A DNA stretch of 64,000 nt from Variovorax sp. HW608 (GTDB lineage Bacteria > Pseudomonadota > Gammaproteobacteria > Burkholderiales > Burkholderiaceae_C), in contig NZ_LT607803.1 in the NCBI RefSeq assembly GCF_900090195.1, positions 1,488,001-1,552,000 of the forward strand. The letters run 5' to 3'. The notes below the pieces were generated by a model. It saw only the letters and a list, made by a program, of their open reading frames with translations. It did no database searches and had not been told where the DNA came from. This document shows, one piece after another, positions 2,217 through 33,357 of the stretch; within the stretch, counting starts at the first letter, position 1; each line of letters starts with the position of its first letter. The position numbers and the translations under genes were made by a program.

Positions 2217-2232
2217 ACGTCGTTTATGACGA
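2217..2232 (+). promoter_or_regulatory. Operator-like dyad (site 1 of 6), upstream of acyl-CoA ligase
   Basis: ACGTCGTTTATGACGA, followed by TGGT. It matches the dyad TCGTC-N6-GACGA seen at five other promoters except for the first base, and ends 60 bp before the ligase start. A possible -10 hexamer AACAAT lies at 2255-2260. Regulatory function is inferred from recurrence. Confidence 0.55.
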
Positions 2233-2292
2233 TGGTCACGCGCTGCTGGCAGGGAACAATCGTAGCCTTTCACATCGTCTTCCAGCTTTGCC

Positions 2293-3828
2293 ATGTACCC
2301 AGGAAAGCACGCAGCCTCCACACCAGAAAAAGCAGCCATCGTCATGGCCGCGACCGGACAAGTCGTTACGTATGCCGAACTCGAAGAGCGTTCTTTGCGC
2401 ATTGCCAACTGGCTGCGCGGCGTGGGGTTTCAGCGGGGCGACACGGTGGCACTTCTCTCGGACAACGACCCTCGCATGTTCGACGTCTATTGGGCCGCCC
2501 AACGATCGGGGTTGTATCTCACCGCAATCAACTATCGGCTGAAGCCCGAAGAGGTCCAGTACATCCTGGAGAATTCCGAAGCCAAGGCGATTTTCGTCGG
2601 TGGCGCAGGCGCGAAGTCGGCCCGCCCCTGGACCGAAATTTCGACATTGCTGCACCGCATCACTTTCGATGACCGGCTTCCTGGCTACACGCCGCTTGCT
2701 GACATTCTTGCCTCCGCTTCGGCAAGCCGGCCGCCCCATGAACCGCGCGGCGGTGACATGCTGTACTCCTCCGGCACAACCGGGCGCCCCAAAGGTGTTC
2801 GCGCTCCCCTGCCCCGGCGTGAAGTCTCCGAACCCGGAGACGCAATGGTCGCGATGTTCGGCGGCAGCTTCGGATTCTCCTCGGAGACGGTCTACCTTTC
2901 GCCTGCCCCGCTCTACCATGCCGCGCCGCTTCGGACATGCGCCACGGTGCAGGCGCTCGGAGGCACGGCCGTCATCATGGACAAGTTCGACGCAGAGGGG
3001 GCGCTAGCCAACATCGAGAAGTACCAGATCACCGCGAGCCAATGGGTGCCGACCATGTTCGTGCGCATGCTCAAGCTCGATCCAGCGACACGTGCCCGAT
3101 ACAAGATCAGTTCGATGGAAGTCGCCATCCATTCGGCGGCCCCATGTCCTCCAGAGGTCAAGGAGCAAATGATCGCCTGGTGGGGACCCATCGTGTATGA
3201 GTACTACTCGAGCACCGAGGTCAACGGCATTACCGTGATAAGTCCACAAGAGTGGCCGCGCAAGCGCGGCTCGGTCGGACGTCCCATTCTCGGCAAGATC
3301 CACATCTGCGACGAACAGGGGGATGACCTGCCGGCGGGCCAGGATGGCCTTATCTACTTTGAGCGCGATGAGCAACCTTTCGAGTATCACCTGGATCCCG
3401 AAAAGACGCGTTCCACTATGCATCCGGAACATCCAACTTGGACAGCTGTGGGCGATATTGGTCACGTCGACCGGGATGGCTACCTGTTCCTCACTGATCG
3501 CAAGGCATTCATGATCATCTCGGGTGGCGTGAACATCTACCCCCAGGAAGTCGAGAACGTCCTCGCGCTTCATCCGGCGATATTCGATGTTGCCGTGATT
3601 GGCGTGCCGGATCCCGAGATGGGGGAACAGGTCAAGGCCGTGGTTGTGCCGTCGTCTGAAGCGAACCCTGGGCCAGAATTGGAACAGGAAATCATCGAAT
3701 TCCTGAAGAGCCGCATCGCATCGTTCAAGGCCCCACGCAGCGTTGACTTCGTAGACGCTCTACCGCGCACTGCCACAGGCAAGCTCGTGAAGGGTGACCT
3801 GCGCTCCCGCTATTGGCCCAAGAAGTAG
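2293..3828 (+). CDS. Acyl-CoA synthetase (AMP-forming, FadD-like)
   Basis: ANL-superfamily ligase that activates a carboxylic acid to its CoA thioester via an acyl-adenylate. At 511 aa it has the usual length. Seen: the P-loop YSSGTTGRPKGV (about residue 157), the adenylate-binding YEYYSSTE, the hinge region GDIGHVDRDGYLFLTDR and the C-terminal catalytic lysine in PRTATGKLVKGDLR. No clear Shine-Dalgarno precedes the ATG, but the N-terminus MYPGKHAASTPEKAA fits the family. It stands alone on the plus strand between the LAL gene and convergent beta-oxidation genes, with operator site 1 in front. Substrate cannot be read from sequence; medium- to long-chain or branched acids are plausible. Confidence 0.9.
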   Translation: MYPGKHAASTPEKAAIVMAATGQVVTYAELEERSLRIANWLRGVGFQRGDTVALLSDNDPRMFDVYWAAQRSGLYLTAINYRLKPEEVQYILENSEAKAIFVGGAGAKSARPWTEISTLLHRITFDDRLPGYTPLADILASASASRPPHEPRGGDMLYSSGTTGRPKGVRAPLPRREVSEPGDAMVAMFGGSFGFSSETVYLSPAPLYHAAPLRTCATVQALGGTAVIMDKFDAEGALANIEKYQITASQWVPTMFVRMLKLDPATRARYKISSMEVAIHSAAPCPPEVKEQMIAWWGPIVYEYYSSTEVNGITVISPQEWPRKRGSVGRPILGKIHICDEQGDDLPAGQDGLIYFERDEQPFEYHLDPEKTRSTMHPEHPTWTAVGDIGHVDRDGYLFLTDRKAFMIISGGVNIYPQEVENVLALHPAIFDVAVIGVPDPEMGEQVKAVVVPSSEANPGPELEQEIIEFLKSRIASFKAPRSVDFVDALPRTATGKLVKGDLRSRYWPKK

Positions 3829-4036
3829 CTCCGTTGCGCCCCGCTCCTGGCTACCTTGCTCCTGGCCAGGAGGCGATTGCTTGACATCGGCTCGAAACGC
3901 CGCATCGAAGCGATATATCAGGGCGCTGCCGAGTCCGGACCCGGTCTCAACGACAACAATCCCGTCGCGCTACCCTTGCAGCGCTCGACGACGCGCCGAC
4001 TTCTAGGTCCGACACGGTCGCCGAGCGTCGATTGAA
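3829..4036. other. Intergenic gap between convergent genes
   Basis: About 208 bp between the stop of the ligase (plus) and the stop of the acyl-CoA dehydrogenase (minus). Only short reading frames with no family resemblance are present. I see no convincing terminator hairpin with a T-run. Confidence 0.5.
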
Positions 4037-7365: not shown

Positions 7366-7381
7366 TCGTCATTTCCGACGA
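7366..7381 (+). promoter_or_regulatory. Operator-like dyad (site 2 of 6), fadB-like promoter
   Basis: TCGTCATTTCCGACGA with perfect 5-bp arms. The 20-mer TTCGTCATTTCCGACGATGG (7365-7384) occurs again, inverted, in the promoter region at 21.5 kb. A -10-like TAGACT (7405-7410) lies 24 bp beyond the dyad, the same distance and sequence as at site 3. The FadB start is 59 bp downstream. Confidence 0.65.
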
Positions 7382-7440
7382 TGGTCTAAGGGAGCGCTGA
7401 TTTCTAGACTTGGCCGGGTCGGATGTTCCCCGAAGGAAAT

Positions 7441-9591
7441 ATGGTGTTTCAAGGAAATTGCTTGCGCATGACGGCTTTGCCCGAAGACGGAATCTTCGAA
7501 GTCTGTTTCGATCGTCAAGGCCAACCCATCAACAAGTTCGATGACCGAACCGTGGAGGAACTCCGCCAGGTCACCGATCTGCTGCGCGCTACGCCAGGTC
7601 TTCGGGGCGTCCTCGCGACTAGCGCGAAGGAGGTCTTCATCGTCGGCGCAGACATCACCGAGTTCGGGGAAAAGTTCAAGAAAGCGGCCGCCGAGATCAC
7701 GCAGGACGTCCTCCGCAGCAACGAAGTGTTTATCGCATTCGAGGATCTCCCAGTGCCGACGGTGGTCGCCGTCAATGGCTACGCTCTCGGAGGCGGCCTG
7801 GAGTTTGTCCTCGCGAATTCCATCCGAGTGATGTCGGATGTCGCGCAAGTAGGTGTGCCAGAGGTGAAACTAGGCCTGTTCCCGGGCTTCGGTGGCACCG
7901 TTCGACTGGCACGCATTGCAGGTGCAGCGGTTGCCAGCGAGTGGGTCGCTGGAGGAAAGCCGTCCAAGGCGGACGCTGCCCTGAAGGCCGGCGTTGTCGA
8001 TGCGGTCGTGCCCGCGGCCGAGTTGCGTGAGCAGGCACTTGAATGGCTGAGGCGGGCGATCATCGGTGAAGTCAATTGGCGCGATCGTCAAGAACGCAAG
8101 CGCCTCCCCGTGGCTGCATCGGCGGACGAGGTGCGCGCCGCATTCGAGACCGCACGCGCCGGCGCAGCCAAAGTTGCACCAACCCATCAACCCGCAGCCT
8201 TGGCCGCGATTGACATGATGCACAAGGGCGCGAGCCTCGCTCGTGAAGACGCGATTCGTCTGGAAGCGACCATATTCGGCGAGATCGCGCGCACTCAAGC
8301 GGCACGCTCCATGGTGCAAACCTTTCTTAACGAACAAACCGTCAAGAAACTTGCCCGAAACGCTGGCAAAGGTGGCATGCCGATCAAGAAGGCAGCCGTT
8401 CTCGGCGCAGGCATCATGGGCGGAGGTATCGCATTTGCCAGTGCGCGCGCCGGTGTTCCCGTACGACTCAAGGACATCCAGCAGAACGCCCTCGACCAAG
8501 GCATCAACGAAGCCCTCAAGCAAACGGCTCGCCAGGTGAAAGCGGGCCGGCTCACCGAGACTCGCGGCCGCGAGTTGGTCGAATCGATCACTCCGCAACT
8601 CGATTCATCGGGCTTCGAGGAGGTCGATATGGTGGTCGAGGCGATCGTGGAGAATCTCGACGTCAAGCGGAAGGTGCTCTCGGAATTAGAGCCAGGCCTC
8701 GCTGCCTCAGCAATCATCGCGTCGAACACTTCGAGCCTGCGCATCGACGACATCGCCAGCTCGCTGCAGCACCCGGAACGACTCGTCGGGATGCACTTCT
8801 TCAATCCTGTTCCGGTGATGCCCCTGGTTGAAGTGGTTCGCGGTAGCAGGACCTCCGATTCCGCGGTGGCCTCCGCCGTGGCCTACGCTACAGCAATGGG
8901 CAAGACAGCCATCGTGGTGAAAGATTGCCCCGGCTTTTTGGTCAATCGCGTCCTCACCGCCTACATCAGAGCCTTTTTGCAGCTGATCGCAGATGGCGCC
9001 GACTTCGAAGCAGTCGATGAAGCCATGGAGGCGTTCGGTTGGCCCATGGGGCCGGCGTACCTGGAGGACGTCGTCGGAATGGATACCGGCAGCCATGTGA
9101 ACAACGTGATCTCCGCGGGATATCCTGAGCGCATGCCTGCTCTGGCCAACGACGCGCTTCGCATGATGGTCGAGTGGCGCCGCTACGGCCAGAAGAGCGG
9201 ATTTGGCTTCTATCGCTACGAGCCAAGCAGCACCGGCAAACCGGTGCGCGGCCCCGCCGGCGACACACGCGCCCTGCTGGCGAAGATTCAACCCAACGGG
9301 CAGTGCGCGTTCGGCGCCGCGGAAATCGTGGATCGAATGATGCTTCCCATGGTCCTGGAAGCAGCCAAGGCCTTGCACGAAGGCGTCGTCGGAAGCGCTG
9401 CGGAAGTCGATCTGGCCATGCAGCTTGGGCTTGGATTCCCCACCTACGCGGGCGGCCCACTGAAGTACGCGGATTGGCTCGGTCCCTCCGAGGTTATCGC
9501 CCGATGCGAACGGCTGGCACGACTCGGACCCGCCTATGTGCCCCACGACCGTTTGCGTGAAATGGCCTCCGCAGGCCAACGCTTCTACTGA
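7441..9591 (+). CDS. fadB: FadB-type enoyl-CoA hydratase / 3-hydroxyacyl-CoA dehydrogenase
   Basis: Fused multifunctional beta-oxidation protein. The ATG at 7441 (MVFQGNCLRM) aligns with E. coli FadB MLYKGDTLYL; an ATG at 7423 adds six residues and is less likely. 716 aa, family length. The N-terminal crotonase part has oxyanion sequences and Glu121 (YALGGGLEF) and Glu141 (GVPEVKLGLFPGFGG), matching FadB Glu119/Glu139. The NAD-binding part has GAGIMGGGIA, and the dehydrogenase His is in MHFFNPVPVMPLVEV. It hydrates enoyl-CoA and oxidises the 3-hydroxyacyl-CoA. The next gene, an ACAD11-like dehydrogenase, starts 20 bp later. Operator site 2 precedes it. Confidence 0.94.
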   Translation: MVFQGNCLRMTALPEDGIFEVCFDRQGQPINKFDDRTVEELRQVTDLLRATPGLRGVLATSAKEVFIVGADITEFGEKFKKAAAEITQDVLRSNEVFIAFEDLPVPTVVAVNGYALGGGLEFVLANSIRVMSDVAQVGVPEVKLGLFPGFGGTVRLARIAGAAVASEWVAGGKPSKADAALKAGVVDAVVPAAELREQALEWLRRAIIGEVNWRDRQERKRLPVAASADEVRAAFETARAGAAKVAPTHQPAALAAIDMMHKGASLAREDAIRLEATIFGEIARTQAARSMVQTFLNEQTVKKLARNAGKGGMPIKKAAVLGAGIMGGGIAFASARAGVPVRLKDIQQNALDQGINEALKQTARQVKAGRLTETRGRELVESITPQLDSSGFEEVDMVVEAIVENLDVKRKVLSELEPGLAASAIIASNTSSLRIDDIASSLQHPERLVGMHFFNPVPVMPLVEVVRGSRTSDSAVASAVAYATAMGKTAIVVKDCPGFLVNRVLTAYIRAFLQLIADGADFEAVDEAMEAFGWPMGPAYLEDVVGMDTGSHVNNVISAGYPERMPALANDALRMMVEWRRYGQKSGFGFYRYEPSSTGKPVRGPAGDTRALLAKIQPNGQCAFGAAEIVDRMMLPMVLEAAKALHEGVVGSAAEVDLAMQLGLGFPTYAGGPLKYADWLGPSEVIARCERLARLGPAYVPHDRLREMASAGQRFY

Positions 9592-9611: not shown

Positions 9612-10871
9612 ATGAACTTCCAACTGCCACAAGACGTACAGCAAATGCAGCGGACGCTGCGTCGCTTCATGGACGACGAGGTCCTGCCTCAGAACGAGGA
9701 GTTCGAGCGGATTGCGGAATCTGGGCGATTCCCGACGGAGGTGGTTGAACCACTGAAGAAGAAAGCCCGCGAAGCGGGCTTGTGGAACCTCTTCCTGCCC
9801 GGTTTGCGCGAAGACGAGCCCGGGACCAGACTGACGAACATGCAGTACGCACCTCTTGCAGAGATCATGGGTCGCATTCCTTGGTCGGCGGAAGTGTTCA
9901 ACTGCAACGCACCAGACACGGGGAACATGGAACTGCTCCACCTGTTTGCCACTCCCGAGCAGCGCGAGCGTTGGCTGGCCCCCCTGATGGACGGCCGCAT
10001 TCGATCCTGCTTCGCAATGACCGAACCGGATGTCGCGTCATCGGACGCGACGAACATTGCGACAAGCATCCAGCGAGACGGCGACGAGTACGTCATCAAC
10101 GGGCGCAAGTGGTTCACCACTGGCGCCATGCACCCCAACTGCAAGCTTTTGATCGTGATGGGGGTAACCAACGCGGCCGCCGACGCACCCAAGCACGCGC
10201 GTCACTCGATGGTGCTGGTGCCGATGGACACCCCGGGACTGCGGATCATCCGCAACGTGCCGATCATGCACCACCATGCCCCAGAGGGTCATTGCGAGAT
10301 CGTCTTCAAAAACGTACGCGTTCCTGTGTCCAATTTGCTCGGTGAGGAGAACGCCGGCTTCGCCCTGGCGCAGGCGCGCCTTGGCCCCGGACGCGTACAC
10401 CACTGCATGCGCACGATCGGTCAATGCGAATTGGCACTGGAGTTGATGTGCGACCGAGCGCTCGCCAGACGAGCTTTTGGCAAGAACATTGCCGATTTCG
10501 CCAACGTGCAAGACTGGATTGCCCAGTCGCGCGTGGAGATCGATCAAGCTCGCCTGTATGTGCTGCAGGCCGCTTGGAAGATGGACACCTACGGAAATAA
10601 ATCTGCGCACCTGGACGTCTCCGCCATCAAGCTAGTTGCGGCACAACTGCAGACTCGTGTCGCCGATCGCGCCATCCAGGTTTTCGGCGCGATGGGTCTT
10701 ACACCCGACACCCCGCTGTCTTGGATCTGGTCATGGGGCCGCGCCATGCGTTTCTTCGACGGGCCTGACGAGGTGCACCTGCGCACGATCGCACGAGCCG
10801 AACTTGCACGAGCGAAGGAACACGTCGGTGCGCTGGCCCCGTACTATCGGGTCCCAAGAAACGATGAGTAG
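9612..10871 (+). CDS. Acyl-CoA dehydrogenase, ACAD11-like
   Basis: 419-aa flavoprotein with SD AAGAGGACATC before the ATG. The segment FAMTEPDVASSDATNI and the C-terminal FFDGPDEVHLRTIARAEL are hallmarks of the ACAD10/ACAD11 dehydrogenase domain, with Asp in DGPDEVH replacing the usual Glu-Gly-Thr. In animals this domain is fused to an APH-type kinase and acts on 4-hydroxyacyl-CoAs through a phosphorylated intermediate; in Pseudomonas levulinate catabolism separate LvaA kinase and LvaC dehydrogenase are reported to do the analogous job. Here an APH-type kinase is encoded at 14987-16009 in the same regulon, so the same split arrangement is inferred. Otherwise it is an ordinary long-chain acyl-CoA dehydrogenase. 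Confidence 0.88.
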   Translation: MNFQLPQDVQQMQRTLRRFMDDEVLPQNEEFERIAESGRFPTEVVEPLKKKAREAGLWNLFLPGLREDEPGTRLTNMQYAPLAEIMGRIPWSAEVFNCNAPDTGNMELLHLFATPEQRERWLAPLMDGRIRSCFAMTEPDVASSDATNIATSIQRDGDEYVINGRKWFTTGAMHPNCKLLIVMGVTNAAADAPKHARHSMVLVPMDTPGLRIIRNVPIMHHHAPEGHCEIVFKNVRVPVSNLLGEENAGFALAQARLGPGRVHHCMRTIGQCELALELMCDRALARRAFGKNIADFANVQDWIAQSRVEIDQARLYVLQAAWKMDTYGNKSAHLDVSAIKLVAAQLQTRVADRAIQVFGAMGLTPDTPLSWIWSWGRAMRFFDGPDEVHLRTIARAELARAKEHVGALAPYYRVPRNDE

Positions 10872-13881: not shown

Positions 13882-14976
13882 TCAAGGGCCAGCGGCGACG
13901 GGCGCACGCCAAGCGTGCAATGCGTCGTCCATCGAGGTTGCAGCGGCAGCATGGGGCGTCGAATTGCTGGTTCGAGAAAATCGGGGCGCCGGCGCCGGTT
14001 GCAGCACCCCGTCAAGGGTGACGTAGGTCCCCCGCGCAGCATTGTGCGGGTGCTTGGGTGCCTCATCCCAATCGAGGACCGGCGCAAAGCAGGCGTCGGT
14101 TCCCTCCAGGACCTCGCACCATTCATCCCTGGTACGCGTCCGGAACACGTCAGCCAGCCGAATCTTCAGGAGCGGCCATCGAGAAGCATCCATCTGTCCC
14201 TTGAACAAGGGATCATCTATGCCGCAGCGCTGACAGAACTCCGCATAGAACTGAGGCTCGATTGCACCAATCGCGACGAATTTGCCATCCGCGCAGGCGT
14301 AGGTATCGTAGAAGTGCGCTCCCCCATCAAGGAGATTCTCCCCTCGCTGGTTGCTCCATTGTCCCATCGCCTTCATGCCATACATGAAGGCAGAGAGAAG
14401 TGCGGTGCCATCCGTCATGGCCGCATCCACGACCTGCCCGCGACCCGAGCGCGCGGCTTCGTTCAAGGCTGCGAGCAGTCCCACCGCGAGCAACATGCCC
14501 CCGCCACCGAAATCCCCGACATAGTTGAGCGGCGGCGGCGGCGTATCGTCGGCACGCCCGATGGCATGCAGGGCACCGGTGATGGCGATGTAGTTGATAT
14601 CGTGGCCGGCAGCGTGTGAAAGCGGACCGTGTTGCCCCCACCCGGTCATCCGACCGTAGATCAGCCTTGGATTGGCAGCCAAGCACTCCTTGGGCCCCAG
14701 GCCAAGTTTCTCCATCACGCCTGGCCGAAATCCCTCGATCAGGCAGTCTGCCGCGGCGACAAGCTCGAGTGCCTGCTCAACAGCGCCTTCCGATCGCAAA
14801 TCCAGGGTCACAGTTCGTCGGTTTCTCGTCGTGACGTCGCGAGCGTCGGTGCTCGTCCCGGGACGAGCGAGCCGGATCACATCGGCCCCAAGGTCGCCGA
14901 GCACCATCGCGCAGAACGGCGCTGGGCCGATGCCTGCGAACTCCAATACCTTCAGTCCAGCAAGTGGTCCGGCCAT
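13882..14976 (-). CDS. Alpha-methylacyl-CoA racemase-like (family III CoA-transferase fold)
   Basis: 364 aa, CaiB/BaiF fold. It has the racemase signature GHDINY (His125) and VGDFGGGGM (Asp155), the two acid/base residues of AMACR and mycobacterial MCR, so it should interconvert (R)- and (S)-2-methylacyl-CoA rather than transfer CoA. SD AGAGGA precedes the ATG. It is the last gene of the long minus-strand operon starting at 21446, 10 bp after the kinase gene. Its presence implies a methyl-branched substrate, since only the S epimer is accepted by acyl-CoA dehydrogenases. It converges with the NPD gene, with only 5 bp between the stops. Confidence 0.88.
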
Positions 14977-17022: not shown

Positions 17023-17031
17023 CCGTCAACC

Positions 17032-21604: not shown

Positions 21605-24253
21605 ATGAAACCCGCCCCCTCCCCCCCCATCTCCTCCGCGAAACTGGCGCCGCTTGTGCAGCGCTCGGCAGAAGTCCGGCGAGACCGCCTTGCTGATCGG
21701 CTCGCGCGTGCTGGCGCAGTCAAACTCGTCCTGGTGCGGGCGCCCGCCGGCTTTGGCAAGACCACTGCCATGGTTCAGTTGCGCGAGGCCTTGCAGGCCC
21801 ATGGCGTGGCCACCGCGTGGCTCACCCTCGACAACGCAGACAACGACGTGCCGCGCTTCCTGGCTGGGGTCTCTGAGGCGATAAAGCAGTTGGGCCACGA
21901 GCATGATCAGGATCGGGACGTTCTCGCCCAGTTGGCATTGGATCAGCCACCCTTTGCCCTGTTCCTTGACGATTTCGAGATCATTCGCGAGGGCGGGGTC
22001 ATGGGCATGGTTCGCGAACTGCTCGAGCACCTACCGCGCAACGGGCAGATCATCATCGGCTCGCGCACGCTGCCAGATCTTGGCTTGGGACGCTTGCGGG
22101 CTCGTGGCCAATTGCTCGAACTCGACACGGAACTGCTGAGATTCACGCCTGAAGAGACGGCAGAATTCTTCAAGCTGCGGGGGACGGAACTTTCGCTGCT
22201 GACCGTGGACAAGGCGCACGAGAAGACGGAGGGATGGGGCGCGGCCCTTTGGCTTCTGTCTCTGGCCTTTCAGCGCCATGGGACGCCCAGTGACTTGATG
22301 GCGAGACTGCCATCATCAGAGCGCGAGGTCGCAGACTACCTTACTGAAGAAGTCCTCGCCCAACAGGATCCACCGGTGCGCGATTTCCTCTTGCGAACCA
22401 GCATTCTGCGGCACCTCAGCGCCCCTGTCTGCCAGGCATTGCTTCCACAGGTCGATTGCGCGTCCATCCTGCGGAAGCTCGAAAGGGACAACGTCTTCCT
22501 GGTACAGGTCGAAGGCGAGCCGGACCTCTACCGGTATCACAGCCTGTTCGCCGACTTTCTGCGCAAGCTGCTTGAGCGAGAGCGCCCGGACGAACTTGCA
22601 CGATTGCACCTCGCCGCGTCTGGCTGGTACGAATCACAGAGTCGACCCGTTCCCGCCATCGACCACGCGATCGAAGGCGGCGACCACCCGCACGCGTTGC
22701 TGTTGCTGGAAGAATGCGCACACGCGTTGCTCGAGCAAGGGCGGATGCGGCTTCTGGACAGGTGGTTCTCAGCGATCCCGTCTACCTTGCTGCGAGAACG
22801 ACCATTGATGCAGGTCATCGCGGTCTGGGCGCGTACCTTCAGTCAGGGACCGTGGACCGCCATGGCGTGGCTGGAAGCGTCCGGTTGTCGGCAGAGCCCG
22901 GACCCACAGGTGCAGGCCCATGTGCGTGTTCTGCTGCCCGTTCTGTTGGCCATGATGGACCGCTACGATGAGGCGCACGCGGCAGGACGTTTCGGAGTTC
23001 AGCATCTGAACTCTGGAAACGCATTCGTGGACACCGTCCTGCTCAATGCCATGGCCCATATCGTCTCCGTCGCCGGCGAGCGCCAGGAAGCGCAGCATTT
23101 CCTTGAAGAGGCGCGGCGCACTCAAGGCAGCAGCGCCTTCAACCGCATGTACACGGAAACCGTACAAGGCTTCCTCGATCTGCGCGAGGGACGGCTGCGT
23201 CAGGCGACGGCACGTTTTCGCATGGCGATCACATCCTCTTCGGGAGCGGCGACCTACAACTATACGCATGGCAACGCGTGGGCCGGCGTCCCTTATGCGG
23301 GTGTCGTGTACGAGGCGAACGACATGCCTGCGGCAGAGCGTCTGCTCAACGTCTACCTCCCGCTCGCCCGGGATGTCGGTCTCCCCGACCACATGATTTC
23401 GAGTTATCGCATGCGATCACGCATTGCGTTCCAGCGCGGTGATGTGGATGCCGCACTGCAAGCACTCACCGAACTGGAATACCTCGGTCATGAGCGCCAC
23501 CTTCCCCGCGTCACGGCAAGCGCGAAGCTGGAGCGCTCGCGCCTGCTGGTGCTGCAGGGGCACGCCTCTGCAGCGCGTGAAGAGTTGGCTCGCGGTGCCG
23601 ACCCTCAGGTCTGGGCAGCGGCGCAGGACCAATATCGACCCGCCCAGGACGTTGATGATGTGCTTGTGGGACAGGTGCGCGTCGGGTTGTATTTTGGCGA
23701 ACCTGCGCAACACATCGCCGAACTCGAGGCGGCCATCCATCACGCGCGAACGGCACAGCGGAACCATCGGGCGCTCAAACTTCGCCTGCTGCTTTCTCTC
23801 GCCTTCTTGCGCTCGGGCGACGTTGGCCGCGCGACCCAGGAGGGCATACTGGTTCTTCAGGACGCCAATCGCGAGGGATTTGTGCGCCTGTTGCTGGACG
23901 AAGGACCGGCGTTGGGCTCGTTGCTACGTCGGGTCCACACATCCGCACCAGAACTCGGTCAGGATCCGATCTTGCGAGAGTACGTAGAACGACTTCTTGA
24001 GTTGGTTGGACCGGCCGGCGCAGACGAAGAAAGCGTCGAGGGCGGCGGAGGTGAGGTGGAGTTGCTCACCCGAAAGGAGATCCGCATCCTGCAGTTGCTC
24101 GCCGAGGGCTATTCAAATACTGCGATGGCAGAGAAGCTCTTTGTCTCCGATAGCACAGTGCGCACGCATTTGAGGAACATCAACACCAAGTTGCAATGCC
24201 ATAGCCGAACCCAAGCTGTGGCGATCGCGCGCCGGCGCGGCCTGATCCGCTAA
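21605..24253 (+). CDS. MalT/LAL-type LuxR transcriptional activator, full length
   Basis: 882 aa. Walker A APAGFGKTT (46-54), Walker B FALFLDDFE (117-124), a long TPR-like helical sensor (about 330-780) and a C-terminal LuxR HTH (LTRKEIRILQLLAEGYSN...STVRTHLRNINTKLQCH). STAND-class ATPase that, when ATP and an inducer bind, activates promoters. It diverges from the SDR-thiolase-Liv operon and lies between that operon and the LivK gene, making it the likely regulator of both. The HTH recognition segment is nearly identical to that of the paralogue at the left end, so both may bind the same sites. The inducer may be an acyl-CoA or a free acid; unknown. Confidence 0.93.
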   Translation: MKPAPSPPISSAKLAPLVQRSAEVRRDRLADRLARAGAVKLVLVRAPAGFGKTTAMVQLREALQAHGVATAWLTLDNADNDVPRFLAGVSEAIKQLGHEHDQDRDVLAQLALDQPPFALFLDDFEIIREGGVMGMVRELLEHLPRNGQIIIGSRTLPDLGLGRLRARGQLLELDTELLRFTPEETAEFFKLRGTELSLLTVDKAHEKTEGWGAALWLLSLAFQRHGTPSDLMARLPSSEREVADYLTEEVLAQQDPPVRDFLLRTSILRHLSAPVCQALLPQVDCASILRKLERDNVFLVQVEGEPDLYRYHSLFADFLRKLLERERPDELARLHLAASGWYESQSRPVPAIDHAIEGGDHPHALLLLEECAHALLEQGRMRLLDRWFSAIPSTLLRERPLMQVIAVWARTFSQGPWTAMAWLEASGCRQSPDPQVQAHVRVLLPVLLAMMDRYDEAHAAGRFGVQHLNSGNAFVDTVLLNAMAHIVSVAGERQEAQHFLEEARRTQGSSAFNRMYTETVQGFLDLREGRLRQATARFRMAITSSSGAATYNYTHGNAWAGVPYAGVVYEANDMPAAERLLNVYLPLARDVGLPDHMISSYRMRSRIAFQRGDVDAALQALTELEYLGHERHLPRVTASAKLERSRLLVLQGHASAAREELARGADPQVWAAAQDQYRPAQDVDDVLVGQVRVGLYFGEPAQHIAELEAAIHHARTAQRNHRALKLRLLLSLAFLRSGDVGRATQEGILVLQDANREGFVRLLLDEGPALGSLLRRVHTSAPELGQDPILREYVERLLELVGPAGADEESVEGGGGEVELLTRKEIRILQLLAEGYSNTAMAEKLFVSDSTVRTHLRNINTKLQCHSRTQAVAIARRRGLIR

Positions 24254-24435: not shown

Positions 24436-25653
24436 TCAACGACCTGCGGCAATCAATGAGCCAAACGGCTCGTAGCGAGATCCGTTGAACTGAATCAGTT
24501 GCAGCTTGTCGATGGGGTAGCTGTCAGTTGCCGAGGTCTGAACGTCGATGCCAGGGTACAGCATCGGCAGGGTCATGTTCAGATTGAGCGCCTGTTTCAT
24601 CAGATTCTCGCGACTGAGGTTGTCGCCCGCCTGCTTGAGCGTCTGCACCAAGGTCTGCGCGGCGCTGTATCCAATGATGTTCAGCGAATCCGTCGGATCT
24701 GCTGCGGGTACATATTGCTTGAGCACCGCCGCGTAGTCTTGGTACTCCTTGGTTGCCTGGGTCGCGGGGTCGGTGGGGTCGCGCATATAGGTTGCGCTGA
24801 TGATCCCCTTCGACGCGTCCAGACCTGCAGGCTTCAAGACCGAACCGAGGGACTGTGAAGTGCTCGAGAGGTACCGAGTCGGCGTCCACCCAATTTCAGC
24901 TGCCTTCTTGATCGCCATGGCGCCAAAACGCGGCGTGGTCACCAAGATCAGCACCTCGGCGCCCGTGCCCTTGAGCGAAACGATCTGACTGTCGATGGTC
25001 GGATCGGTCGTCTCGTAGGTTTGGAAGATGACGTTCTTCGCCATATCGCCAAGGCCGTCCAGAATCCCCTTCTGAAATTCCTTGCCGTAGTCGTCGTTCT
25101 GCATCAGCACAGCGACCTTCGCCTTGGGCTTTGTCTGCGCGATATGTTGACCGTATGCCTTCGCTTCGGCGTAGTAGGTTGGCTGCCAGCCAATGGTCCA
25201 CGGATTCTTCTCGATCTCACCGAAGCGGACGCCGCCGGCTCCCACGAAGAGCTGGGGAACCTTTTTCACGTTCAAGTATTTCTGAATGGCGATATTCGAG
25301 GCGGTTCCTACGGGCAGGAAGATGGCCAGGACTTCGTCCTGTTCGACCAGCTTTCGCGCCTGCTCCACCGATTTCGCTGGCGTGTAGGCATCGTCAAGCG
25401 AGATGAAGTTGATCTTGCGACCATTTACACCCCCCTCCGCGTTCACCTTTGCGAGGTAGGCGCCTGCAGCCTTTCCGATGGTGCCATACGAAGACACCGG
25501 GCCGGAGTAGGGAACCATATTGCCGATCTTGATCTCGGCGTCGGATGCCCCCGGGTCATAGCGCTTTTGTGCTGCGGCAGACAGGGAAACTGCGGCCATG
25601 GCGGCTGCGGATAGCACCAATGAAAAGGTGCGGCGATTCAGGATGGCGCTCAT
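24436..25653 (-). CDS. ABC transporter substrate-binding protein (LivK-type)
   Basis: 405 aa periplasmic receptor with a signal peptide (hydrophobic LVLSAAAMAAVSLSAAAQ), then type I periplasmic fold: IKIGNMVPYSGPVSSYGTIGKAAGAY, GRKINFISLDDAYTPAKSVEQARKLVE, and IFLPVGTASN. Strong SD AAGGAGG. It should deliver the substrate to LivHMGF encoded at 16006-19416. It sits downstream of the first tannase-family gene (130-bp gap, same strand), which suggests co-expression of esterase and receptor for its product. Confidence 0.92.
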   Translation of the reverse strand: MSAILNRRTFSLVLSAAAMAAVSLSAAAQKRYDPGASDAEIKIGNMVPYSGPVSSYGTIGKAAGAYLAKVNAEGGVNGRKINFISLDDAYTPAKSVEQARKLVEQDEVLAIFLPVGTASNIAIQKYLNVKKVPQLFVGAGGVRFGEIEKNPWTIGWQPTYYAEAKAYGQHIAQTKPKAKVAVLMQNDDYGKEFQKGILDGLGDMAKNVIFQTYETTDPTIDSQIVSLKGTGAEVLILVTTPRFGAMAIKKAAEIGWTPTRYLSSTSQSLGSVLKPAGLDASKGIISATYMRDPTDPATQATKEYQDYAAVLKQYVPAADPTDSLNIIGYSAAQTLVQTLKQAGDNLSRENLMKQALNLNMTLPMLYPGIDVQTSATDSYPIDKLQLIQFNGSRYEPFGSLIAAGR

Positions 25654-25783: not shown

Positions 25784-27520
25784 TCAGCTCGCCGCGCAGG
25801 CGAAGTTGGCCGCACTGTTGACGTCTCCAGATCCCTTGTACTTGGGGAACAACGGGTACTCGCACATCGGACGGGTTCGGCCAGCAGTGGCAGGATTTCC
25901 ATCCTTGACGACGGGATCAACCGGAGCCTGGCCAGACTCTACCCAGGTGTCGATGGCCGAGAGCGAATCCCACTGCAGAGCGAAGGTGCCGCCAGCATGC
26001 CCGAAGCCTGGCTGAACGTAGTAGCGCAGGAAGCTCTTGAGCGAATCACCGTATCGGGCGGCCACGCGGTTGTAGTACGCCGTCGTCATGTAGGGCGAGA
26101 CCAGCATGTCGGTCGTACCCTGGATCAGCAGAAGCTTTCCGCCACGCGCCTTGTACGTGTCCAAGTTTGGGTTGGTCGCATCGAGGAGATTGGAGAGCTG
26201 TTGAACCCGGCTCTGCCAGTTTCGGTAGTCGAAGCCCGTGGTGACACTGTTCGGATCTTGCTGGATGAAGTACTTGATGACTGGTTCATCGAAGCCGTAG
26301 TAGATGGCCTTCGTTCCATCCGTCCCCATGGGGTCGAACAGGATGCCTGTCATATCACCACCATCGAACACAGGATAGGGGCCGATGCTGGTGACGCCAT
26401 TCGACAATGGGAACGTGAACTCAAGCGGCGTGGCCCCGGTCATCAGGGTGTTGATCTGCACATCGGACAGACAGGTGTCACCGGTATCCGCTCCCCCCGG
26501 GCAGCGCAGGTTGTTCACGGCAAAGGTCGCGTGGCATGCCTCCGTATTGCCAATGATCCCGTCGACGACCCCATCCAAGGCGTCGCACGCCTCCATCACC
26601 TTCGCTTTCACCAACGCTTGCTTGGCGGGGTTGAGGGCCCCTCCAGGTGTCGAATACGCCGCGCTCCACATGCGGAACCAAGACAACACCATTGCCTGGT
26701 TCTGGTTTGCGGGGTAGTAGGCCACGATACCGTCGTAGTCCGCCCCGTACTTCTGGGCTGCCTGAAGGCTTTCGTGCCCCCCTTTGGAGTGCCCAATGTG
26801 GTACATGCGCCGGGGCGCGGTGCCATAGTAGGACGAGATGAGGTACGTTGCCGCGTCGTGCGTGCGCTTGATACTCTCCCCTGAATAGTTCGCCATCGCT
26901 TGCGCGTTCAACCCGAACGTGCCGTCAAAGGTGGTGCCACCGTCACTGCCGAACGTCACATAGTTCTGTGCCAATGGAAGTTGGGCATCACTGGGCGCGT
27001 TTGGAACGCCGCCGAGCGGACCGCTTATCCCGGTGATCAGCAGCCCGTTAAAACCTCCGCCGCCTATCTGGAGCGCCTTGAAGTTCCACGTCGTCGGAAG
27101 ATTGACCTCGAAGTTGATCTTCGGGTCTGCCGTGTTCGTCGCGATGACGCTACCGAGCACCTTGCAGAACTCGGGCAATCCAGCGCTCGTGTCGGCTGCA
27201 GTCAGCTGCGCCGAGGTGATGGTTGCTCCCTGGCTGGGAAGCGCAAGGGCGCTGGCCGGAATGCTCGTTCCTGAAATGGCCGAGCATTTCGCTGCAGCTC
27301 CCTGCACCTGCATGGAGGTCGGCGCGGGGGCAGGTGCGGGAGCGGGTGATGGTGCCGGAGCGGGTGCTGGTGCTGGTGCTGGTGCAGCAGTTGGTATCAC
27401 GACGCCTCCGTTGCTGCCGCCACCGCACGCAGCGAGCGTCAGCGTCGCCAAGCCGGCGAGAACGGAACGCATGGCAGCATTCTTGCGGGACGACGTGCTT
27501 ATTGAATCGAGGACTTCCAT
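25784..27520 (-). CDS. Tannase/feruloyl-esterase-family lipoprotein 1
   Basis: 578 aa from the ATG at 27520 (SD AGGAGACAAG). Lipoprotein signal with lipobox LAAC (Cys32), then a Pro-Ala linker (about 42-68) that would hold the enzyme off the membrane. The tannase-fold alpha/beta-hydrolase follows: nucleophile Ser245 in YHIGHSKGGHES, Asp in IQGTTDMLVSP, His in PGFGHAGG. The family normally has Cys next to the Ser and to the His (CS and HC), joined by a disulfide; here both are replaced (HS and HA). It hydrolyses an ester outside the inner membrane; the substrate is unknown. Operator site 4 and a promoter shared with the paralogue at 31529 lie upstream. Confidence 0.88.
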   Translation of the reverse strand: MEVLDSISTSSRKNAAMRSVLAGLATLTLAACGGGSNGGVVIPTAAPAPAPAPAPAPSPAPAPAPAPTSMQVQGAAAKCSAISGTSIPASALALPSQGATITSAQLTAADTSAGLPEFCKVLGSVIATNTADPKINFEVNLPTTWNFKALQIGGGGFNGLLITGISGPLGGVPNAPSDAQLPLAQNYVTFGSDGGTTFDGTFGLNAQAMANYSGESIKRTHDAATYLISSYYGTAPRRMYHIGHSKGGHESLQAAQKYGADYDGIVAYYPANQNQAMVLSWFRMWSAAYSTPGGALNPAKQALVKAKVMEACDALDGVVDGIIGNTEACHATFAVNNLRCPGGADTGDTCLSDVQINTLMTGATPLEFTFPLSNGVTSIGPYPVFDGGDMTGILFDPMGTDGTKAIYYGFDEPVIKYFIQQDPNSVTTGFDYRNWQSRVQQLSNLLDATNPNLDTYKARGGKLLLIQGTTDMLVSPYMTTAYYNRVAARYGDSLKSFLRYYVQPGFGHAGGTFALQWDSLSAIDTWVESGQAPVDPVVKDGNPATAGRTRPMCEYPLFPKYKGSGDVNSAANFACAAS

Positions 27521-27603: not shown

Positions 27604-27619
27604 TCGTCCTAACCGACGA
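27604..27619 (-). promoter_or_regulatory. Operator-like dyad (site 4 of 6), tannase-family gene 1 promoter
   Basis: On the minus strand TCGTCGGTTAGGACGA, followed after two bases by a -35-like TTGGGC and, 16 bp on, TAGCAT (27574-27579) as -10. The gene starts 83 bp downstream. Dyad, -35 and -10 are conserved at the paralogous gene (site 6), placing the dyad next to the -35 box as expected for an activator. Confidence 0.65.
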
Positions 27620-28265: not shown

Positions 28266-30695
28266 CTAGTCCCGCCCGTACTCCAGCGCCTCGGATGTGG
28301 GTGGGCGCGGGAGCCGCACGCCTCCTGGCCCCGCTTCAAAGGTGGTCCACGGATTGACGGGCTGTTGCTCCACACCAGGCTTGGTCCAATCGCATACGCC
28401 TTCAGAGAACACGGCATTTAGTCTGGCGATCTGAGCAGCACCGAAAATCACCCCGTTGTAATCCGCGCTGCTCGGGTTGAACGGTTTCAATTGACATTTG
28501 AAGACGTTCTCCGCGATCGGGCCGCCGGCTGCCATGCGCGGTGATTTGTAGAACTTCACCGGGCAATTCGCATCGAAGATGCCCACACGTGTTCCACTAT
28601 CAAGCTTACAGAAGTCGCCGTCCGGGGACCCAGCGACGACGGGCTTATGAGCGACGACTTTTGCTTCGATCGGAGAAACGCTGTCGTCGAGCTCGATCGC
28701 GTGCAGCCATGCGTCGAGGGTGTTGAAGCTTTCGAGCACGGTGTCGCTGACGTCGTTCTCGAGCCAAAGCATGTGGTTCGCGTGACTGCCATGATCCCGA
28801 TCAAGTCGGTCACGGATTCCAAGCGAGCCATGATTCATGTGATTGTCGCCATCGGGGTTGTTGTTCACGCGCCGCTCGACGATCGCCACCTTGGCGAGTT
28901 GCCTGCCGTCGCTGACGAGTCCACCGGTGTAGTAGGTCTTCAAGGTCGAGGAATCCGACTTCATGCGGGTCGGGTGCCAGACCAGATCGAGGTCAAATCC
29001 ACCAATGCCTTCGTTGAGGCTCACGAAATCCTCCGCGGTGATCACGCCGGCTGTCAGCGCCTTGAGCCCGTACTGCACGCCGACGTTGTCATATGGTGCT
29101 CTGGTCTTGAGGACGCCGTCCGAATCAACGAATCTCCCGACCTGCGATTGGACGTGCTCGACGTCGTCACAACGAAGGCCGTTCTTGTTCGTGGTTGGGT
29201 TGTACGTCAGCGCAGTCGGAAACTGCCCCACGGGGAAAGCATTCCCGCAATTGTTGACCCTCGGATTGTCGAAGTTTCCGAACGAGCCTATCCACGAATT
29301 GCAGAACTTGGTGTTCATGTGCCCATTGATCGCAGACTTCTGGTCCTCAGTCAGCGACGCGCCGGGGCCCGGCCTGCTGTAGTACCCAGGGCTTCCAGGG
29401 AACTGCGCTGACGTAGCTTGCAGCAGGCCGCAGTCGGTGATCTCGATATGAACGGACTTCTCGTCGGGAAAGGCGAGCGTTGGTTGAACGCCTTGTAGCA
29501 ATCCAGGGTATGCCGAGGCAATGGAATGCTGCATCACAGACCCGCCCGAGCCCCCGTCGCTCATGGTGTAACGGATTTCGCCATATTGCTCAACGATCCG
29601 TTCTTTGACCATCATGATGGTCTCTGCCGAAACAGTGGCGTTGGTCGTTGTCAGGCCGTCGGTCTGCGGGGAGATGGCGATCATGAAGCCGCGCTCGAGC
29701 GCAGTCCGGAAGATGTTGGCGTTTGGATCGATGCCAATCGGGGGGGTGAAAACGTTCAGGAAATCGGAAGGAGCCGACTCGAATCGTGACGCTCCGCCGC
29801 CACCGCCGAATCGCCAATAGAGCTTCTGGTTCCAACCCTTGGGCGGCAACCACGCGACATTGGCGTCGCGCGGGTCGTACAGTGTGACCAGCTCATAGAT
29901 GCCGCGATTGATGGAACCGCGTTCCACGCGGATCAGGTACTTGACGGTGTCGCCGCGGTCGTTTGTTATGTTGGCGGCGTCCGCTGGCACCGTGGCAGGG
30001 CTGCCCGGCGTATATGCCGTGAAGCACGCATTGGCTCCGGTCACTGCGAAGTTGCAGTTCGCTGGCGCGGTTGTCCTCTTGTAGTAGTACGTGTATGTGG
30101 GCGGCGTCTCGCATTTCGATGCTCCTGGCGGATCGTTCGTAGCTGGACTCGTATTCAATCCGCTTGCGATTGTGTTCGCGGTGCCCTGCTGGCCGGCGTT
30201 CCCAGTCACATTGACCGTCATGGAGGCCTGGGTCGCGCAAATCCACGGCTGCAGCTGAGCACCGGAGAACACGGGCCCACCACTCGGATGGTTGGTAATC
30301 GTGATCTGAGCGGCCCGGCCCGGCACCTGTGCGGTCAAGATGTTGGGGCCTTCCCTCAGGCCACTGATCAAGCCCATGTATCTGCCATTGGGCCGTACAG
30401 CGAACGAGTCGGTCAGCGATCGACCATTGAGTGAAACTTTGGCATTTTTGAGGTTGCTTCCATTCGGCCACTTGATCTCAACCAGAGCGTCGCCTCCGGA
30501 GACCAAGTCTGCACGGTTTGAAAGAACGAGGATTTTCGGCACAGCAGGCCCCCCCAGCCTATCGTCATTGCGCCCATGTCGCCAAAAGCCGTCATCGTTC
30601 CAGCCGTCCGAGTCGTGCGCCGATGCCGTGATGGCACCCGCTCCTGTCAAAAGGCCGAACACGATCGCGCATGAGAAAGGGACTCTGAGTTGCAT
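28266..30695 (-). CDS. DUF6351-like exported protein, probable alpha/beta-hydrolase
   Basis: 809 aa from the ATG at 30695 (GGAG six bases upstream; the ATG at 30701 abuts the SD). Signal peptide ending ITASAHD. An N-terminal Ig-like/beta region (about 50-130) is followed by a large domain with the possible nucleophile elbow MSDGGSGGSVMQ (about residue 400), VWHPTRMKSD, and a His-rich stretch NHMNHGSLGIRDRLDRDHGS. From memory this resembles DUF6351 proteins; no enzymatic activity is established to my knowledge. Its position between two tannase-family esterase genes, with the same operator dyad, suggests a third secreted or periplasmic esterase acting on the same material. Confidence 0.75.
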   Translation of the reverse strand: MQLRVPFSCAIVFGLLTGAGAITASAHDSDGWNDDGFWRHGRNDDRLGGPAVPKILVLSNRADLVSGGDALVEIKWPNGSNLKNAKVSLNGRSLTDSFAVRPNGRYMGLISGLREGPNILTAQVPGRAAQITITNHPSGGPVFSGAQLQPWICATQASMTVNVTGNAGQQGTANTIASGLNTSPATNDPPGASKCETPPTYTYYYKRTTAPANCNFAVTGANACFTAYTPGSPATVPADAANITNDRGDTVKYLIRVERGSINRGIYELVTLYDPRDANVAWLPPKGWNQKLYWRFGGGGGASRFESAPSDFLNVFTPPIGIDPNANIFRTALERGFMIAISPQTDGLTTTNATVSAETIMMVKERIVEQYGEIRYTMSDGGSGGSVMQHSIASAYPGLLQGVQPTLAFPDEKSVHIEITDCGLLQATSAQFPGSPGYYSRPGPGASLTEDQKSAINGHMNTKFCNSWIGSFGNFDNPRVNNCGNAFPVGQFPTALTYNPTTNKNGLRCDDVEHVQSQVGRFVDSDGVLKTRAPYDNVGVQYGLKALTAGVITAEDFVSLNEGIGGFDLDLVWHPTRMKSDSSTLKTYYTGGLVSDGRQLAKVAIVERRVNNNPDGDNHMNHGSLGIRDRLDRDHGSHANHMLWLENDVSDTVLESFNTLDAWLHAIELDDSVSPIEAKVVAHKPVVAGSPDGDFCKLDSGTRVGIFDANCPVKFYKSPRMAAGGPIAENVFKCQLKPFNPSSADYNGVIFGAAQIARLNAVFSEGVCDWTKPGVEQQPVNPWTTFEAGPGGVRLPRPPTSEALEYGRD

Positions 30696-30854
30696 AGTCA
30701 TCTCCGCTACTTGGTGGTACTAGGGTCCGGCACCTCGGGCGGCACTTGTCGTGGAGAGACTTCGTGCTCGCACTGGCGCCCGTCTCGCAAGGCAGCCCGG
30801 CACTGGGCTTCCGAGCTATCGGCGCATATTCCAGACGTGCCTGCCGCACGTCTA

Positions 30855-30870
30855 TCGTCAGAACCGACGA
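30855..30870 (-). promoter_or_regulatory. Operator-like dyad (site 5 of 6), DUF6351-like gene promoter
   Basis: On the minus strand TCGTCGGTTCTGACGA. A weak -10 candidate TGGAAT (30828-30833) lies 22 bp beyond. The start codon is 159 bp downstream, farther than at the other five sites, so there may be a longer leader. Confidence 0.55.
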
Positions 30871-31389: not shown

Positions 31390-31528
31390 CCGGACTTGGT
31401 TGGTGAGTTGACTGGGGGTTTGGCGATTTCCAGTCTCTCAAAACTTCTCCGGCTCAACACCTGCAACGACCTATTGAACCTTCAAATCTGGGCCACGCCC
31501 ACGCGTGGCAGGCGTCTACCGAGTTCGG

Positions 31529-33259
31529 CTAGGCAGATGCGCAGGTGAAGCTGGAAGCACTGTTCACGTCACCGCTTCCTTTGTACTTCGGGAACAACGG
31601 GTATTCGCACAGCGGACGAGTACGCCCGCCATTCGCAGCATTTCCATCTTTGACAACCGGATCGACCGGAGCTTGGCCCGACTCCACCCAACTGTCGATC
31701 GCTGCAAGTGAGTCCCACTTCAGCGCGAAAGCGCCGCTACCGTGTCCAAAACCTGGCTGAACGTAGTAACGCAGGAAGGTCCCAGTGGAGTCGCCATACC
31801 GAGAGACCACGCGGTTGTAGTAGGCCGTCGTCATATAGGGCGAGACCAGCATGTCGGTTGTACCCTGGATAAGCAAGAATTTTCCGCCTCGGTCCTTGAA
31901 TGCATCCAAGTTGGGGTTGGTCGCATCGAGAAGAGCAGAGAGTTGTTGGACTCGGCTCTGCCAGTTTCGGTAGTCGAAGCCCAACGTCACGCTGTTGGGA
32001 TCTTGCTGAATGAAGGTCCTGATGACCGGGTCGGCAGAAAGGTAGTAGAGGGAGTACTGTCCGGTAGTCGTATAGGGATCGAACAGAATGCCCATCATAT
32101 CCCCCGCCTCAAGTACTGGGTACGGCCCGATACTGGTAACGCCATTCGACAATGGGAACGCGAACTCCAGCGGCGTTGCGCCAGTCATCAGGGTGTTGAT
32201 TTGCGCGTCGGATAGGCAAGTGTCGCCGGTATCCGCGCCGGCGGGGCACCGTAGGCTATTCACGGCGAACGTAGCACGGCATGCCTCCGTATTGCCGATG
32301 ATCCCGTCGACGACCCCATCCAAAGCGTCGCACGCCTCCAAGACCTTGCTTTTCACCAGATCTTGTTTGGCCGCGTTGAGGGCACCTCCGGGCACCGAAT
32401 ACGCTGCGTTCCACATCCGGAACCAGGACAACACCATGGCTTGATTCTGGTTTGCGGGGTAGTAGCCAACGATACCGTCATAGTCGGCCCCGTACTTTTG
32501 TGCTGCCTGAAGACTCTCGTGACCTCCTTTGGAGCCTCCAATGTGATACATCCTGCGTGGCGCCGTGCCATAGTAGGCCGAGATGAGGTAGTTGGCGGCA
32601 TCGTGAGTGCGCTTGACACTTTCCCCTGAGTAGTTGGCCATCGCTTGGGCATTCGTCCCGAACAGGCCGTCAGGGGTGGTGCCACCGTCACTGCCAAACG
32701 TCACATAGCTCTGCGCCAACGGCAGCTTTGCGTCGCTAGGGGCGTTTTGAACGCCGCCATACGGACCGCTGATCCCGGTGATGAGTACCCCGTTGAAGCC
32801 TGCGCCGCCCAATTGGAGCGCCTTGAAGTTCCAAGTCGTCGGAAGATTGACCTCGAAATTGATCTTCGGGTCCGCCGCATCGGTCGCAATCACACTACCC
32901 AGCACCTTGCAAAATTCGGGCAATCCAGCGCTCGCATCTGCCGGCGATAGCTGCGCTGACGTGACCGTTGCTCCTTGACTAGGAAGCGCCAGCGCGCTCG
33001 CCGGAATGCTCGATCCAGAAAGCGCCGAACACTTAGCGGCGGCGCCCTCCACCTGCATCGAAGTTGGCGTGGGAGGGGGAGCAGGCGCAGATGTTGGCGC
33101 GGGAGCGGGTGCTGGCGCCGAACTGGGTATCACAGCACCGCCGCCGCTGCTGCCGCCGCCACCACATGCAGCGAGCGTCAGCATTGCCACGCCCGCGAGG
33201 GCTGAAAGCATGGTGGTGTTCATCCGGGGCAAGTTGCCCGTTGAATCGAGGACTTTCAT
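31529..33259 (-). CDS. Tannase/feruloyl-esterase-family lipoprotein 2
   Basis: 576 aa from the ATG at 33259 (SD AGGAGACAAG). Close paralogue of the protein at 25784. Lipobox LAAC (Cys32), a Pro-Ala-rich linker, nucleophile Ser in YHIGGSKGGHES, Asp in IQGTTDMLVSP, His in PGFGHGSG. As in the paralogue the CS and HC cysteines are missing (GS and HG). By eye identity is high across the catalytic domain; differences cluster in the linker and in the segment after YPV (GDMMGILFDPYTTTGQYS against GDMTGILFDPMGTDGTKA). Likely a surface- or periplasm-anchored esterase with slightly different specificity. Confidence 0.88.
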   Translation of the reverse strand: MKVLDSTGNLPRMNTTMLSALAGVAMLTLAACGGGGSSGGGAVIPSSAPAPAPAPTSAPAPPPTPTSMQVEGAAAKCSALSGSSIPASALALPSQGATVTSAQLSPADASAGLPEFCKVLGSVIATDAADPKINFEVNLPTTWNFKALQLGGAGFNGVLITGISGPYGGVQNAPSDAKLPLAQSYVTFGSDGGTTPDGLFGTNAQAMANYSGESVKRTHDAANYLISAYYGTAPRRMYHIGGSKGGHESLQAAQKYGADYDGIVGYYPANQNQAMVLSWFRMWNAAYSVPGGALNAAKQDLVKSKVLEACDALDGVVDGIIGNTEACRATFAVNSLRCPAGADTGDTCLSDAQINTLMTGATPLEFAFPLSNGVTSIGPYPVLEAGDMMGILFDPYTTTGQYSLYYLSADPVIRTFIQQDPNSVTLGFDYRNWQSRVQQLSALLDATNPNLDAFKDRGGKFLLIQGTTDMLVSPYMTTAYYNRVVSRYGDSTGTFLRYYVQPGFGHGSGAFALKWDSLAAIDSWVESGQAPVDPVVKDGNAANGGRTRPLCEYPLFPKYKGSGDVNSASSFTCASA

Positions 33260-33341
33260 CTTGTCTCCTGATTGATTGCATCGGCTCTTGGCCGGGCCGT
33301 ATGGGAGACGGATGCTAGGTTTGGCTCGATCAGGCGCAACA

Positions 33342-33357
33342 TCGTCATAACCGACGA
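33342..33357 (-). promoter_or_regulatory. Operator-like dyad (site 6 of 6), tannase-family gene 2 promoter
   Basis: On the minus strand TCGTCGGTTATGACGA, then TTGCGC two bases on, a 16-bp spacer and TAGCAT (33312-33317). The start codon is 82 bp downstream. The layout is the same as at site 4. Confidence 0.65.

Follow-up and report, generated by a model that had tools for sequence, protein, structure and literature searches.

In the genome of Variovorax sp. HW608 we analysed a stretch of 64,000 nt (the window; contig positions 1,488,001-1,552,000 of a single 7,733,565-bp contig; 62% GC) in which a 16-bp dyad, TCGTC-NN-TT-NN-GACGA along the coding strand, stands in front of six units, those of a ligase, of FadB, of a short-chain dehydrogenase/reductase with a Liv-type importer (SDR/Liv), of two tannase-like esterases and of a DUF6351 protein. 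This element is very probably the operator of the two LAL activators, MalT-like regulators of the LuxR type, that are encoded in the same window at 36-2183 (LAL1) and 21605-24253 (LAL2). We also propose, with a confidence only a little above even, that LALs of this group read the centre of an operator with fixed arms through the first turn of their recognition helices, TT being preferred by the Ser type and AT by the Ala type, and that helix and centre have switched together at least twice.

Candidate operators in the genome

Five of the six candidate operators in the window are exact and one carries a mismatch. On the forward strand these are the mismatched site at 2217..2232 (ACGTC-GT-TT-AT-GACGA, with the -10-like hexamer AACAAT at 2255-2260) and an exact one at 7366..7381 (-10 box TAGACT, 7405-7410). 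Those on the reverse strand, all exact, lie at 21521..21536, divergent from LAL2 (TAGACT, 21492-21497), at 27604..27619 (TAGCAT, 27574-27579), at 30855..30870 (weak -10-like GAATAT, 30826-30831) and at 33342..33357 (TAGCAT, 33312-33317), where the promoter is a copy of that at 27604. The initial annotation had placed the dyad at these six positions, with a TT centre and a common orientation, and it was right on each count, TT lying on the coding strand of the downstream gene in six of six cases. The TAGACT or TAGCAT hexamer that it had reported for four of the sites is found there as well, separated from the dyad by 23 or 24 intervening nucleotides. With the offsets fixed at 22-24, the window thus has a clear hexamer at four of six sites, an intermediate one at 2217 and a poor one at 30855.

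As a bare dyad (TCGTCN6GACGA) the motif is too common to be of use and was rejected: it occurs 87 times in the 7.73 Mb of the genome, compared to 55 times for a reversed-pattern control. The oriented, TT-centred form is rare, with eight exact occurrences genome-wide, six of which fall within 42 kb (contig 1,479,297-1,521,342), five inside the window and one just upstream. The genome-wide count by which the dyad was to be judged therefore bears out the clustering of the TT-centred form but nothing special about the bare dyad. The set also exceeds the six sites of the window, since an exact site precedes a nitroreductase gene at contig 1,479,297 and two GCCGA variants stand head to head at contig 1,483,205 and 1,483,242 (L037), between the genes for a Liv-binding protein and an acyl-CoA dehydrogenase; all three lie 5-9 kb before the window. 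Genome G138 likewise has a head-to-head pair of sites (C174, 14052 and 14089).

The promoters at 27604 and 33342 represent one duplication, as the two esterases share 81% identity and roughly 200 bp of upstream DNA can be aligned between them. The sites of the proposed six-site regulon are real, but they amount to five independent cases at most. These two dyads touch only the starts of over-long open reading frames (ORFs); the likely esterase starts are at 27520 and 33259, placing the dyad 83 and 82 nt upstream, respectively. The duplication, together with the numbers for the bare motif, might suggest that dyads simply arise by chance in a GC-rich genome. This explanation is practically negligible, being contradicted by the clustering of the TT-centred form and, in related genomes, by the association with LALs and the -10 spacing (see below).

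Two further sites are not claimed here. The exact TT-centred site at contig 4204728-4204743 (L251, 5229-5244) is without a -10 box at the usual distance, and the nearest ORF start, that of an ORF with an AMP-binding domain, is about 317 nt away; the site at contig 784823 lies inside listed ORFs and is without a -10 box. A DNA hairpin as the functional form was rejected as well, as two dyads folded as single strands were unexceptional (z of -0.97 and -1.36).

Promoter geometry

The window was scanned with a matrix built from 111 sites of related genomes, none of them from this genome, combined with a -10 matrix at offsets 22-24. The six sites take ranks 1-6 (36.9, 36.9, 33.7, 32.4, 27.7 and 20.8), followed by 13.0 for the reverse reading of the 30855 site and then by 10.5, with a peak of 14.2 in the reversed-window control; it has to be set against these scores that their core component is partly circular, because the relatives' matrix was gathered with a pattern derived from the window and was trained partly on the LAL loci that it then scored. 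In a scan of the 111 deduplicated sites from relatives, in which 60 offsets were tried and the -10 position was not imposed, the best TAGACT-like hexamer fell 22-24 nt after the dyad in 73. A -35-like hexamer is not conserved at these 111 sites, no column 18-34 nt after the dyad start exceeding 0.25 bit. The candidate operator is thus arranged as in LuxR-type class II promoters, at a fixed short distance from the -10 box and in place of the -35 box. Class II activation by LuxR-type proteins works from a lux box near -42, and if the -10 box is taken as -12 to -7, the centre of the dyad would lie near -44. The conserved spacing in relatives agrees with the earlier proposal of activation from just upstream of -35.

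The same geometry bears on the possibility that the LAL represses from the dyad, or that the dyad is a dual-purpose operator. The dyad would indeed adjoin the polymerase footprint; however, a conserved -10 spacing with no conserved -35-like hexamer is what is expected for activator-dependent promoters, and according to the available text of PMC6099782 the LuxR-family regulators are generally activators, so that we consider repression highly improbable.

The two LAL regulators

Both regulators are encoded on the forward strand, LAL1 at 36..2183, with a match that starts upstream of the window (contig 1487541) and the helix VSNSTVRTHLRNI, and LAL2 at 21605..24253 with the helix VSDSTVRTHLRNI. 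Both contain the TPR_MalT (PF17874) and GerE helix-turn-helix (HTH; PF00196) domains that mark a LAL, and LAL2, at 882 amino acids, has the size of this type (about 900 residues) and matches the MalT structure 8bob over residues 12-404 (E 1.4e-45). The Walker A motif of the NTPase part reads GFGKTT in LAL1. Close relatives, among the best 120 of 1291, are named from Variovorax, Aquabacterium, Burkholderia and others. LAL1 and LAL2 are 69% identical and sisters on the LAL tree (support 98/92). The claim that their HTHs are nearly identical holds for the recognition helices but not for the last 68 residues, of which only 49 are identical. The variable residues of the helix align just before the conserved TVK/TVR of LuxR-type domains of solved structure, the position at which this family reads DNA. 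Two helix types predominate, S-D/E/N-S-T-V/I-R-T-H-L-R (S type) and A-D/E-T-T-V/I-R-T-H-L-R (A type), with few others; both window LALs belong to the S type, and each of the five exact dyads in the window has a TT centre. The duplication that produced LAL1 and LAL2 left the helix type as it was, so that the two may share operators and yet sense different inducers.

Alternatively, only LAL2 might use the sites, with LAL1 serving another regulon or being a decaying copy. LAL1 differs from LAL2 at 19 of the last 68 residues, and contig 1474000-1489000 is without a site scoring above 10.1 beyond the three named ones, none preceding the start of LAL1. As LAL1 nevertheless retains an S-type helix (SNSTVRTHLRNI) and is encoded directly upstream of the 2217 site, we regard this as rather unlikely, and favour both LALs as activators at the dyad.

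Co-occurrence of sites and LALs in related genomes

The association of the dyad with LALs was examined in 399 sampled genomes of the family, 37 of which have a LAL match at E<=1e-100 (LAL-positive) and 362 of which do not (LAL-negative). The mean number of exact sites is 4.2 in LAL-positive genomes (4.1 when the own genome is left out) compared to 0.60 in LAL-negative ones (Mann-Whitney p=7.6e-18), with 0.70 and 0.82 per genome, respectively, for the reversed-pattern control, and at least four sites are present in 22/37 versus 2/362 genomes. The pattern YCGTCNNTTNNGACGAT is matched 119 times in the 37 LAL-positive genomes, compared to a single match of the reversed control. Kinship does not explain the association, because in the 14 genera of mixed content (own genome included), where 21 LAL-positive genomes have a mean of 3.1 sites and 47 LAL-negative ones a mean of 0.62, only 3 of 100,000 shuffles of the labels within genera gave a sum as large as the real one. 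Sites scoring at least 20 occur in 37 of 40 LAL loci (90 sites in 749 kb) and in none of nine loci (159 kb) in LAL-negative genomes around SDRs of 66-74% identity, which may be paralogues. A de novo dyad search in 30 upstream regions of S-type LALs returned the TCGTC-N6 dyad at the top, in 13/30, the largest count in 50 mononucleotide shuffles being 5; in seven A-type upstream regions no dyad with 5-base arms was found in more than two, and the AT-centred sites lie elsewhere in these loci.

The genes behind the sites are related as well. Across 118 sites (7 of them own), the first downstream gene, taken as the longest ORF within about 450 or 300 nt of the site, encodes LivK in 15 cases, an SDR in 12, FadB in 11, a CoA-transferase in 9 and a thiolase in 8. 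The LivK (Liv-binding protein) cluster is 46-78% identical to the two own Liv-binding proteins, and in the thiolase cluster two of eight are 73-75% identical to the window thiolase and the rest about 36%. Only clusters matching annotated proteins were used, because 12 of 18 tested first genes, from relatives and one far own site, had no Pfam match; some of these may be antisense. An acyl-CoA thioesterase, an Oxidored_FMN and a DUF1329 gene each follow a site once in relatives. One scan of named genomes gave four loci, and the dyad adjoins LALs on contigs named Massilia and Sapientia and in a metagenome-assembled genome labelled Sulfuricaulis. The enrichment in LAL-positive relatives, the related target genes and the -10 box at a fixed distance extend the dyad to related genomes, and the related targets and the co-occurrence with LALs fit the initial idea of a single regulon that joins importer, esterases and beta-oxidation.

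These data also bear on whether the dyad is bound by a different regulator, one whose gene lies elsewhere and has simply been inherited along with the LAL cluster. A LysR regulator (33478-34437) and an IclR regulator encoded upstream of the window are indeed near the cluster in the own genome, and it counts in favour of such a regulator that binding by the LALs is deduced from sequence. However, for neither of these two regulators near the cluster do the 40 LAL loci contain a match that spans 60% of the protein, and the centre of the dyad shifts with the LAL helix in two separate LAL clades and, for the most part, also within one genome, which a third-party regulator would leave unexplained. 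We therefore think it improbable and keep to the LALs, which the initial annotation had named as candidates and for which co-occurrence with the sites, -10 spacing, related targets and the helix-dependent shift of the centre all speak.

Several observations weigh against the LALs as the regulators of the dyad. Apart from the weak -10 box at 30855, an exact TT site is absent from 4 of the 37 LAL-positive genomes, three of which have A-type LALs and the fourth a LAL of 32% identity, and one of 36 S-type loci (G188b) is without a scoring site. In an order-wide sample of 369 genomes, with seven LAL-positive and 351 LAL-negative ones from outside the family, YCGTCNNTTNNGACGAT occurs somewhere in 5/7 of the former but also in 100/351 of the latter, and near the LAL in only 3/7. 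Finally, the LAL-negative genome G650 carries five matches to the pattern.

Operator centre and recognition helix

When YCGTC-N6-GACGAY was searched with the centre left free, 36 S-type loci yielded 97 dyads, 76 with TT and 6 with AT, and seven A-type loci yielded 21, 14 with AT, 5 with TC/GA and 2 with TT (Fisher p=1.2e-10 for TT versus AT by helix type). Since -10-like boxes (score >=4) follow 62/69 TT-strand sites in S-type loci and 11/14 AT sites in A-type loci, both kinds of site look like promoters. On a tree built from 52 LALs the helix type must have changed twice, as well-supported branches dictate: the A-type LALs of G136, G018 and G300 fall within the S types, next to the S-type G082, and those of G105, G122b, G301 and G196 stand apart; as the tree is midpoint-rooted, one of the two changes could run the opposite way. 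Genome G122 combines both types. On its S-type side six TT sites lie on contig 16, that of the S-type LAL, and one on contig 13, and on its A-type side three AT sites lie on contig 1 within about 10 kb of the A-type LAL. Counted over whole genomes, with a site ending in T on both strands counted twice, each of seven A-type genomes has 2-5 AT matches and each of seven S-type ones 0-3. As a separate observation, the VAETT-type loci (L203-L207) form a second regulon, and an AMP-binding ligase is the first gene after one G122 site (L205, 5836-7392).

Other points argue against a link between helix and centre, or at least limit it. The Fisher values are inflated, related sites not being independent. 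G122 has an AT site on contig 16 as well, at a distance of 13 kb from its S-type LAL. Each of the six AT sites in S-type loci is accompanied, on one strand, by a -10-like box, which led us to reject a strict TT/AT code; AT is probably also accepted by S-type LALs. A SETT-type LAL (G704) is accompanied by three TT sites and one AT site, which hints at a greater weight of the Ser/Ala position than of the Thr, and the VADTT clade has TC/GA centres in 5/12 dyads. With the centre disregarded, any scoring site is present in 35/36 S-type loci and in 9/13 with other helices (Fisher p=0.014, two loci without a readable helix set aside), which is weak as proof until the centre is separated. The helix-linked shift, as far as these genomes tell, is a preference and not a strict code. 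Four of the six AT sites in S-type loci are one orthologous site of a single genus with a good -10 box (L088 4757, L089 4847, L090 15330 and L091 14889). In the VADTT-type loci (L217 5566, L218 5370 and L219 5767) a TC-centred dyad, a third centre class, lies near an AT-centred one.

Gene content and proposed mechanism

The 2217 and 7366 sites are followed on the forward strand by the genes for an acyl-CoA ligase (AMP-binding; 2293..3828) and a FadB-like multifunctional beta-oxidation protein (7423..9591), both identified by profile matches. FadB probably starts at 7441, because the profile match begins at residue 7, and this start gives a leader of normal length. An acyl-CoA dehydrogenase gene (9612..10871, forward strand, profile match) is probably on the FadB transcript, judging from gene spacing. 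A second ligase is among the genes listed between it and a family III CoA-transferase (13882..14976, reverse strand, profile match), the latter possibly the end of the SDR-Liv transcript. The SDR gene (20664..21476; the start is possibly at 21446) is the first of a reverse-strand run that continues with a thiolase (19453..20631) and four genes for Liv-type importer permeases and ATPases (16006..19416).

Further reverse-strand genes encode the tannase-family esterases 1 (25784..27520) and 2 (31529..33259), a Liv-type substrate-binding protein downstream of esterase 1 (24436..25653), and a DUF6351 tannase-like protein with a signal-peptide-like N-terminus (28266..30701). The esterases, initially described as exported, are probably lipoproteins and not freely exported, given a lipobox-like LAAC near the N-terminus. 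A GCGGGTGCTGGT-type tandem repeat at 27320-27385 codes for the Ala-Pro linker that follows the lipobox-like cysteine in esterase 1. On the 5' side of the window lie nitroreductase, glutathione-transferase-like and enoyl-CoA hydratase-like genes, a second Liv-binding protein and an acyl-CoA dehydrogenase.

We propose that binding of an inducer and ATP to the N-terminal sensor/ATPase part would cause the LAL to multimerise, and that two C-terminal HTH domains would then bind the arms TCGTC and GACGA, the centre of the dyad lying some 44 bp upstream of the transcript start. The LAL would replace the -35 box and recruit sigma-70 polymerase to a -10 box of the TAGACT/TAGCAT type, and the first turn of the helix would shift the preferred central dinucleotide, S-x-S-T going mostly with TT and A-x-T-T mostly with AT. 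Genes switched on in this way would provide Liv ABC import and ester cleavage by the two probable lipoprotein esterases and the DUF6351 protein, and also CoA activation and beta-oxidation through ligases, acyl-CoA dehydrogenases, FadB, thiolase, SDR and CoA-transferase. Esters would be cut by the esterases and the DUF6351 protein, and the products imported via Liv, activated by the ligases and passed to beta-oxidation.

Relation to known regulators and implications

MalT of Escherichia coli, the type member of the LAL activators, shares with the LALs described here the N-terminal MalT part, the MalT-type TPR and the C-terminal GerE HTH. It binds decanucleotides in direct repeat (PMC6099782, available text), whereas the sites here have one inverted repeat as their conserved element (MalT-type decamers were not searched for) and the target genes are others. 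TpdR of Rhodococcus jostii TMP1 is, like the LALs here, a LAL activator of catabolic genes, but it is actinobacterial, controls a pyrazine-degradation operon and is proposed to bind a 15-nt direct repeat (same source). In Proteobacteria, FadP, PsrA, FadR and LiuR control fatty-acid or branched-chain amino-acid catabolism, and FadP is predicted for fatty-acid degradation in Comamonadaceae (PMC5343134, available text). Those are TetR, GntR or MerR regulators, while the regulator associated with the sites here is a LAL and not, as in the FadP regulon, of the TetR family (no search was made for FadP); neither of the words LuxR and MalT appears in the main text of PMC5343134 as available.

LuxR itself is a short autoinducer-binding protein and, unlike the regulators here, not a LAL; the dyad resembles the lux box in being an inverted repeat, in its approximate size and in its place immediately before the -35 region. 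To our knowledge, operators have been described for few LAL regulators. We found no description of this regulon in the literature searched, which left most subscription papers outside, and what we regard as new is that the operator centre shifts, by preference, with the helix type.

Genomes thus yield more than 100 candidate operators together with the promoter geometry, the targets and a natural shift of specificity, which makes operator recognition by LALs directly testable and may allow paired activator-operator parts to be made. For the family, a likely control system can now be named for a module of acid and ester catabolism. If true, the reading of the centre would allow LAL regulons that arose by duplication to work side by side in a cell, with little crosstalk between them.

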